Assembly (NCBI RefSeq): GCF_024345835.1
Contig: NZ_JAGQBW010000009.1
Coordinates: 62,001 to 126,000 of the forward strand
Reading direction: 5' to 3'
DNA from: Synechococcus sp. HJ21-Hayes
GTDB lineage: Bacteria; Cyanobacteriota; Cyanobacteriia; PCC-6307; Cyanobiaceae
Length of the DNA: 64,000 nt
The notes under the pieces were generated by a model that was given only the letters and a program-made list of their open reading frames with translations, was not told where the DNA came from and made no database searches. The translations under genes were made by a program, and so were the position numbers. Positions 20,786 to 22,147 of this stretch are shown piece after piece; position 1 is the stretch's first letter; every line of letters begins with the position of its first letter.

Positions 20786-22147
20786 ATGGGCCCCATCCCG
20801 AGCGTTCCGGCCCATCCCGATGGCCAAGACCTGCCGCGCCAGTTCGCCAGCCGCGAGGCCCTGCAAGCCGCCCTCCAGAGCCTGTTCCCGCAGGCCCCAG
20901 GCCCGCTCAGCCCCATCGCCGGCGGCCGCCGTGCGGCGCTGGAGCGGCTGGCCGCCATCGAGCCCCACCGCTACGGCCAAACCCGCAACGCCCTGGCAGG
21001 GGCCGTGACCCGGCTCTCCCCCTACATCCGCCACGGGGTACTCCCCCTGGCCGAGGTGCGCGATGCCGTGTTCGCCTGGCTCGAAGCCAGCGGCGCCCCC
21101 CGCCAGCAGGGCGAGAAACTGATCCAGGAGCTGGCCTGGCGCGACTACTGGCAGCGGCTCTGGCAGCAGCTGGGCGACGGCATCTGGCACAACCGTGAGC
21201 CGCTCAAAACCGGCCACGCCCCTGAGAGCTACGCCAGCGCCCTCCCCGAGGACATCCGCCACGGCCAGACAGGCCTGGCCTGCATGGACGCCTTCAGCAA
21301 CGAGCTCAGCAACACCGGTTGGCTGCACAACCACGCGCGCATGTGGCTGGCCAGCTACGTGGTGCACTGGCGCCGGGTGCAGTGGCAGGCCGGCGCCCGC
21401 TGGTTCCTGCAGCACCTGCTCGATGGCGACCCCGCCAGCAACAACCTCAGCTGGCAATGGGTGGCCAGCTGCTTCAGCAGCAAGCCCTACATCTTCAACC
21501 GCGCCAACCTGGAGCGCTTCAGCGGCGGGGTGCACTGCCAGGCCTGTGGGGCCGCCACCGCCGGCCGCTGCCCCTTCGATGCCAGCTACGAGGCCCTGGC
21601 CAGCCAGTTGTTCGGCGAGGAGCTCGAACCAGCGCCCCACATCCCCGCCAGGCCGGATACGCCGCTGCCCGGGGAGCTGCCCGCCCCCAGCCCAGCCCTG
21701 CAGGCACCGGTGGTGTGGGTGCATGGCGAAGCCCTGGGCCCCGCCAACCCTGCGCTGCTAGCCCATCCGGATCGGCCGGCGCTGTTCGTGTTCGACGACG
21801 CTCTGATCAACGGCTCCGAGGAATCCCAGGGTCTCAGCCTCAAACGGCTGGGGTTTCTCTACGAGTGCCTGCTGGAGCTGCCGCTCACCCTGCGCCGCGG
21901 CGATGTGGCCGCCCAGGTGCTGACCTTTGCCAAGCAGCACGGGGCCGATGGCGTGGTGACCAGCGCTGCAGTGGATCCCCGCTTCGCCGCCATCTGCGCC
22001 CAGATCGCCACCGAGCTACCGGTGCAGGTGGTGGTCACCACCCCGTTCGTGCCGCTGGAGGCCCCGGTAGATCTGAGGCGCTTCAGCCGCTACTGGCGCC
22101 GCGCCGAACGGGCGGTTTGGGGCCTGCTCCGGCCCCAGAACCCCTAA
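20786..22147 (+). CDS. Photolyase/cryptochrome-family flavoprotein with reversed domain order
   Basis: A 453-residue protein (ATG 20708 would add 26 residues) whose FAD-binding helical domain comes first, at about residues 60-245. Landmarks are YGQTRNALAGAVTRLSPYI, ELAWRDYWQRL, GWLHNHARMWLASY and DPASNNLSWQWVAS; the last two align by eye with the corresponding parts of the ordinary photolyase at 25952-27457. Next comes a Cys-rich linker (Cys251, Cys254, Cys262). The C-terminal part (about 309-430: VVWVHGEALGP, ALFVFDDAL, LGFLYECLLEL, GADGVVTSAAVDPR) resembles the alpha/beta antenna domain that is N-terminal in ordinary photolyases. DNA repair, light sensing or another redox role cannot be separated by sequence. 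Divergent from fabI. Confidence 0.82.
   Translation: MGPIPSVPAHPDGQDLPRQFASREALQAALQSLFPQAPGPLSPIAGGRRAALERLAAIEPHRYGQTRNALAGAVTRLSPYIRHGVLPLAEVRDAVFAWLEASGAPRQQGEKLIQELAWRDYWQRLWQQLGDGIWHNREPLKTGHAPESYASALPEDIRHGQTGLACMDAFSNELSNTGWLHNHARMWLASYVVHWRRVQWQAGARWFLQHLLDGDPASNNLSWQWVASCFSSKPYIFNRANLERFSGGVHCQACGAATAGRCPFDASYEALASQLFGEELEPAPHIPARPDTPLPGELPAPSPALQAPVVWVHGEALGPANPALLAHPDRPALFVFDDALINGSEESQGLSLKRLGFLYECLLELPLTLRRGDVAAQVLTFAKQHGADGVVTSAAVDPRFAAICAQIATELPVQVVVTTPFVPLEAPVDLRRFSRYWRRAERAVWGLLRPQNP

Follow-up and report, generated by a model that had tools for sequence, protein, structure and literature searches.

A reverse-order photolyase gene in Synechococcus sp. HJ21-Hayes that probably joins both subunits of an iron-sulfur photolyase

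Photolyases with Reversed Domain Order

Photolyases whose flavin adenine dinucleotide (FAD) domain precedes the photolyase-type alpha/beta domain have been described in picocyanobacteria as one gene or two. A two-gene pair was reported in Synechococcus WH7803 in 2012, and a heterodimeric photolyase was proposed (PMC3441193). In 2022 the genes were named phr4, phr5 and, for the fused form of Cyanobium NS01 and PCC 7001, phr6, with stress on the reverse order; Phr6 was presented as Phr4, which holds FAD and four cysteines, joined to Phr5, two proteins that are usually separate, and Nostoc punctiforme was said to share the gene complement (PMC9426592). The gene analyzed here lies at 20786..22147 (+ strand) of a 64,000-nucleotide stretch of the Synechococcus sp. 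HJ21-Hayes genome (contig NZ_JAGQBW010000009.1), hereafter the window, and encodes a fused reverse-order photolyase of 453 amino acids. It probably unites, as a natural fusion, both subunits of a two-part iron-sulfur (Fe-S) photolyase that repairs pyrimidine dimers with light, cyclobutane pyrimidine dimers (CPDs) being likelier than (6-4) products. A protein of this order is already known, as Phr6 since 2022 and as a two-gene pair since 2012, and a first-pass annotation of the window erred in calling the reversal rarely discussed: the 2022 paper treats it with a mutant and Escherichia coli tests (PMC9426592). With the window gene belonging to a type already described, greater interest attaches to its relatives. 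What is added here is the breadth across phyla, distant partner genes and a likely link with the short photolyase-like (SPL) class, the 'short photolyases'.

The traits that define Phr6 and Phr4/Phr5, namely a four-cysteine FAD domain followed by a photolyase domain in one gene or two adjacent ones, are all found in the window protein, and no difference in kind from Phr6 was seen. As in RS9916, where the ordinary photolyase gene phr3 lies a few genes off, an ordinary photolyase is encoded nearby. The literature on Phr4/Phr5 describes adjacent or fused genes; unlinked pairs and other phyla come from the present searches.

SPLs have been called a class of CPD repair enzymes (PMC9649867), with SephrC of S. 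elongatus assigned to them (PMC9178010), and have been cited as possible ancestors (PMC9498864); an inverted domain topology has been ascribed to 'NewPHLs or SPLs' (PMC13274461). In the passages covered by the literature searches, no paper was found that plainly reports a link between SPLs and phr4/phr5, or unlinked pairs. Like SPLs as described, the window protein has a class I photolyase-like catalytic half without an N-terminal alpha/beta domain; class I and DASH models match it best, class III not having been compared separately. Some SPLs carry four cysteines as well. Unlike SPLs, which are said to lack an alpha/beta domain altogether, the window protein has one at its C-terminus, and relatives have it as a separate protein. 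Judged by how SPLs are described, Phr4 would itself be one.

Two further groups are comparable. The FeS-BCP proteins (PhrB, CryB) resemble the window protein in the fold of the FAD half and in four cysteines for an Fe-S cluster, which in the window protein is predicted, but they keep the usual domain order. The single-stranded DNA CPD photolyases NewPHL and Phr7 also place the FAD domain first and a small domain, the Z-domain, second, but lack the Fe-S cysteines (PMC9426592) that the window protein has. When the profile of its alpha/beta half was compared with the C-termini of five short, presumed NewPHL/Phr7 relatives, taken as guessed Z-domains, no clear similarity emerged (hhalign probability 9.9).

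Domain Order of the Window Protein

The open reading frame (ORF) is intact, with an ATG start and a TAA stop. Its catalytic FAD domain, the Phr4-like part, spans residues about 10-280 (20816..21625, + strand) as supported by PF03441, phmmer, AlphaFold2, VIA-align and conservation; PF03441 itself covers residues 113-235 (E 1.8e-24), and residues 34-241 align to Anacystis photolyase (phmmer; 1tez/1owl, E 2e-21). The FAD motifs are N182 and M186 within GWLHNHARM and W223 and W225 within SWQWVAS. A proline-rich linker follows at residues ~281-305 (21626..21700, + strand), at the junction of two otherwise separate proteins. The Phr5-like alpha/beta, or antenna-like, domain then starts near residue 308 and occupies residues about 305-450 (21701..22135, + strand), ending in an RFSRYW helix; PF00875 matches residues 332-413 weakly (18.3 bits against a cut-off of 26.6, E 0.0023). 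AlphaFold2 models the whole protein with a mean predicted local distance difference test score (pLDDT) of 93.5 and a predicted template modelling score (pTM) of 0.92, pLDDT falling to 64-66 at linker residues 281-300.

Profiles, the AlphaFold2 model and structure searches thus bear out the annotated placement of the FAD domain before the antenna-like one. The ordinary class I photolyase said to be encoded about 4 kb away in the opposite order is P0002 (25952..27457, - strand), 3.8 kb from the window gene, with PF00875 at residues 8-172 and PF03441 at 307-496. Its best NCBIfam model is TIGR03556, for photolyases of the 8-hydroxydeazaflavin (8-HDF) type, at 668.7 bits, under the cut-off of 884.6. 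The N-terminal antenna that precedes the FAD domain in class I CPD photolyases and FeS-BCP proteins is present in P0002 and absent from the window protein.

A mis-start hiding an N-terminal antenna domain was rejected, as extension in frame to 20708 gives just 26 extra codons. No N-terminal antenna was matched in the relatives either, and in all 24 fused rows available the FAD match comes first and the alpha/beta one second. Sequencing error as the source of the fusion was also rejected: six further fused proteins (L054, L058, L152, L185, L188 and L195; loci carry L numbers, genomes G numbers) cluster with the window protein, and fused forms occur in other phyla too, among them L139 and L146. 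Among cyanobacteria the joined form is the exception.

Identity of the Alpha/Beta Half

Because the structural matches to the whole model span mainly the FAD half (best 50 VIA-align rows, Z 17.6 to 12.9, residues 9-287), the C-terminal half was modelled and compared on its own. AlphaFold2 gave pLDDT 91.2 and pTM 0.82, and the model matched E. coli photolyase (1dnp_A residues 1-165; Z 11.2, root mean square deviation [rmsd] 3.7, 136 residues aligned) and Anacystis photolyase (1owl residues 3-161; Z 10.8, rmsd 3.5, 134 aligned). Next come universal stress proteins with Z near 10, so that the fold by itself is less telling than sequence and fold together.

In sequence, a profile built from 36 relatives of the region ~299-453 was run against all PDB sequences; its top match was a cryptochrome N-domain (E 3.7e-5), followed by Anacystis photolyase (E 0.016). 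Among the 36 members, 26 match PF00875 and six match Usp. Aligned by hhalign with 11 classical photolyase N-domains, the profile reached a probability of 96.9 (E 1.4e-10, 135 columns), with the closing RFSRYW helix set against their VFTPFWR segment. The possibility that the C-terminal part is something other than a photolyase-type alpha/beta domain, which the annotation had left room for, is thus contradicted by profiles and structure alike. Alignments A2-A4 and A6 were built from a chosen part of the available rows.

Predicted Iron-Sulfur Cysteines

The annotation had pointed to a three-cysteine linker that could hold a metal. Cysteines 251, 254 and 262 are present (CxxC...CPF, 21536..21571, + strand) but belong to the closing part of the FAD domain rather than to a linker. 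Together with C166 (21281..21283, + strand) they form the four-cysteine set of Fe-S photolyases, so that by sequence the suggested metal would be an Fe-S cluster, with C166 as the predicted first ligand. RS9916 Phr4 has C169, C254, C257 and C263, which were ascribed to such a cluster (PMC9426592). In an alignment of 167 relatives (166 distinct sequences, some genomes perhaps reached twice), the first position is cysteine in 159 and each of the other three in 148, the full set being complete in 148. C229 of the window protein is not conserved (cysteine in just two of 167).

The otherwise normal adjacent pair L090 (G229) lacks all four, with S, P, P and D at the sites, and several proteobacterial-type pairs (e.g., L194, L196 and L202) retain the first cysteine alone.

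Co-occurrence and Gene Arrangement in Cyanobacteria

The two halves were searched separately in 386 cyanobacterial genomes (alpha/beta half E <= 1e-5, FAD half E <= 1e-40). The FAD cut-off was picked to exclude ordinary photolyases. It also drops weaker matches, such as those near 1e-24 in a number of small genomes from the same family; some of these matches could represent Phr7-like FAD halves that lack a partner. The alpha/beta half was found in 83 genomes, the FAD half in 82 and both in 81 (Fisher p 4e-80, kinship ignored). Two genomes have the alpha/beta half alone: in G342 it is located at the start of a contig, and in G385 it is a sole fragment (L131) with no FAD-half match at E <= 1e-40. 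The one genome with the FAD half alone, G026, has a different, longer protein, a 451-residue frame (L091) whose C-terminus looks alpha/beta-like by eye.

Of the 81 genomes with both halves, 78 encode them in separate ORFs; one ORF holds both in the window, L054 and L058, all from one family. Unlinked genes occur in 22 of these 81 genomes: 12 have them on one contig with 25 kb or more between them, and 10 on different contigs (in one of the 10, G376, the halves lie near contig ends, possibly through a contig break). With the genes apart in these 22, the halves there must meet as separate proteins.

These arrangements bear on a proposal made beside that of a heterodimer for phr4/phr5, by which a programmed +1 frameshift joins the products of the two-gene form (PMC9426592); the window fusion would then have made the recoding permanent. 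Such joining would fit the uniformly short distance between the two genes in the picocyanobacteria studied there. It is nonetheless very improbable, given the unlinked cyanobacterial pairs, three pairs 1.0-1.5 Mb apart in another phylum, and a frame offset that takes all three values (26, 27 and 56 cases) in the 109 split pairs found on one locus. As a general explanation frameshift joining was rejected for the unlinked pairs; close pairs could still recode.

Two loci may be in decay. L131 in G385 looks like a second gene decaying once the first was lost, and L132 (G284:C1:291235-295917) is a second, shortened side-by-side copy of both halves in a genome with the full pair L074, perhaps a decaying duplicate.

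Relatives in Other Phyla

A scan of genome contigs across phyla covered the best 80 loci among at least 586 relatives. The alpha/beta half lies on the locus in 71 of them, fused in 19. In the other nine it lies elsewhere in the genome, nearly whole in eight and partial for L157, whose locus ends at a contig end; the search for it was positive in 16 of 16 records. By record title, which for metagenome-assembled genomes (MAGs) can be wrong, the pair is present, split or fused, in six other phyla, the titles naming Chloroflexi, Acidobacteria, Planctomycetes, alpha-, beta- and gammaproteobacteria, Eremiobacterota and one Acidimicrobiia MAG. Of 199 genomes in the phylum of G386, 42 have a match, and loci were examined in 12 of the 42; the four best, all with four cysteines, have the partner, adjacent in one and 1.0-1.5 Mb off in three. 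Among plasmids (nine of 12 records examined), the alpha/beta half occurs in four Deinococcus records and gave no match in the other five. Deinococcus plasmids have it fused in L139, L146 and also L266, where both matches fall in one annotated gene, and as a pair overlapping by 4 nucleotides in L140.

Fusion or fission has occurred repeatedly. Parsimony on the tree of 167 rows, built by a quick method and with several weak branches, requires at least five changes between fused and split states, the 'adjacent' state including eight of the 109 split pairs that are >200 bases apart. An overlap of exactly 4 nucleotides was found in 27 of the 109 when the second gene was started at the ATG nearest the first gene's stop, a choice that favors small gaps and leaves the frame offset unaffected.

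Two MAGs are of note for their records. The L187 genome (G397, 3.0 Mb) has four alpha/beta matches, two equal in score, possibly duplicated genes or redundant contigs. A MAG titled Klebsiella pneumoniae carries the pair L194 (CAMCRC010000007.1), which the tree puts in one group with pairs from MAGs titled Alphaproteobacteria and Obscuribacterales; the Klebsiella title is probably wrong.

Lesion Site and Likely Repair Function

The residues E115, W118, N182, M186 and W225 correspond to those that hold the lesion in the A. nidulans (Anacystis) CPD photolyase. They are kept in 156, 165, 166, 157 and 167 of the 167 relatives, respectively. N182 and M186 are typical of CPD enzymes, and the lesion-site residues of the FeS-BCP/PhrB (6-4) photolyases differ from those of the window protein. 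The conservation of this CPD-type set favors CPD over (6-4) repair.

A (6-4) photolyase was predicted from the Fe-S cysteines and from a UV-C rather than UV-B phenotype (PMC9426592). The four cysteines do recur in Fe-S (6-4) photolyases, and the best superpositions of the FAD half are with PhrB-type (6-4) enzymes (7ykn, Z 17.6; 5kcm_A, Z 17.1, rmsd 3.6, 259 aligned), ahead of 1owl (Z 14.7, rmsd 3.1, 251 aligned). The phr4 mutant, moreover, survived UV-C 20-30 times less well, with UV-B survival like that of the control (PMC9426592). By sequence, however, class I and DASH proteins are nearest to the FAD half, N182 and M186 are kept in 166 and 157 of the 167 relatives, and SPLs have been counted among CPD repair enzymes, all of which makes (6-4) repair unlikely, if less so than the other alternatives.

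A cryptochrome-like blue-light receptor in place of a repair enzyme seems improbable. DASH and plant cryptochrome models do match the window protein, below their cut-offs, and the protection conferred on E. coli was independent of light, but the lesion-site set is kept and UV-C phenotypes were seen in two hosts, the mutant and a photolyase-less E. coli whose UV-C survival phr4/phr5 raised (PMC9426592).

For the light-driven two-part photolyase that is preferred here, assembly, cofactors and substrate may be pictured as follows. The first half would bind FAD and a [4Fe-4S] cluster (C166, C251, C254, C262) and carry the lesion pocket; the second is the usual alpha/beta antenna-type domain, set after the catalytic half, probably docking on it and perhaps holding a light-gathering cofactor. 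In most relatives found the halves are separate proteins that would have to assemble. The enzyme would most likely use light to repair ultraviolet-made pyrimidine dimers, CPDs more probably than (6-4) products.

Several observations weigh against this proposal. Foldseek and VIA-align matches cover one half each, and the packing of the two domains is a prediction of the AlphaFold2 model. At least one of the four cysteines is absent in 19 of 167 relatives (two of them, L088 and L203, cut-short rows), E115 is replaced by Gln or Ala in 11 and M186 by Leu in 10. The alpha/beta model was unmatched in five ~400-residue plasmid proteins of other bacteria (L141-L145), and Prochlorococcus was reported to have a gene for the FAD half and none for the other (PMC3441193). 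Light made no significant difference to the UV-C protection that phr4/phr5 gave E. coli, and there was no UV-B effect in mutant or transformant; the authors took this pattern for (6-4) repair (PMC9426592). The missing light dependence argues against ordinary photoreactivation in E. coli. Absent cofactors, or lesion binding alone, might account for it. The partner can be missing where the FAD half has no Fe-S cysteines, as with Phr7.

Short Photolyases as Possible Two-Subunit Enzymes

It seems reasonably likely that the Fe-S 'short photolyases', proposed as the antenna-less ancestor of the photolyase/cryptochrome family, are two-subunit enzymes whose alpha/beta part either has a gene of its own, near or far, or is attached to the opposite end; by record title these span at least seven phyla. 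The relatives suggest that the partner subunit was overlooked when SPLs of the Fe-S type, taken for domain-poor ancestors, served to root the photolyase/cryptochrome tree. In that case the family may have started as a pair of separate proteins, with fusion in either order coming later. The split and fused versions of one light-driven enzyme that nature provides would also allow energy transfer between antenna and FAD to be studied by mixing subunits.

A further set of ~400-residue photolyases (L143, L231, L232, L233 and L091) lacks the Fe-S cysteines and has an alpha/beta-like end, with an SFFxxWKK motif in four of the five. The joint alignment of their C-termini matches the alpha/beta profile (hhalign probability 92.8), L091 being 18% identical to the first row, and they perhaps represent a second reverse-order class.
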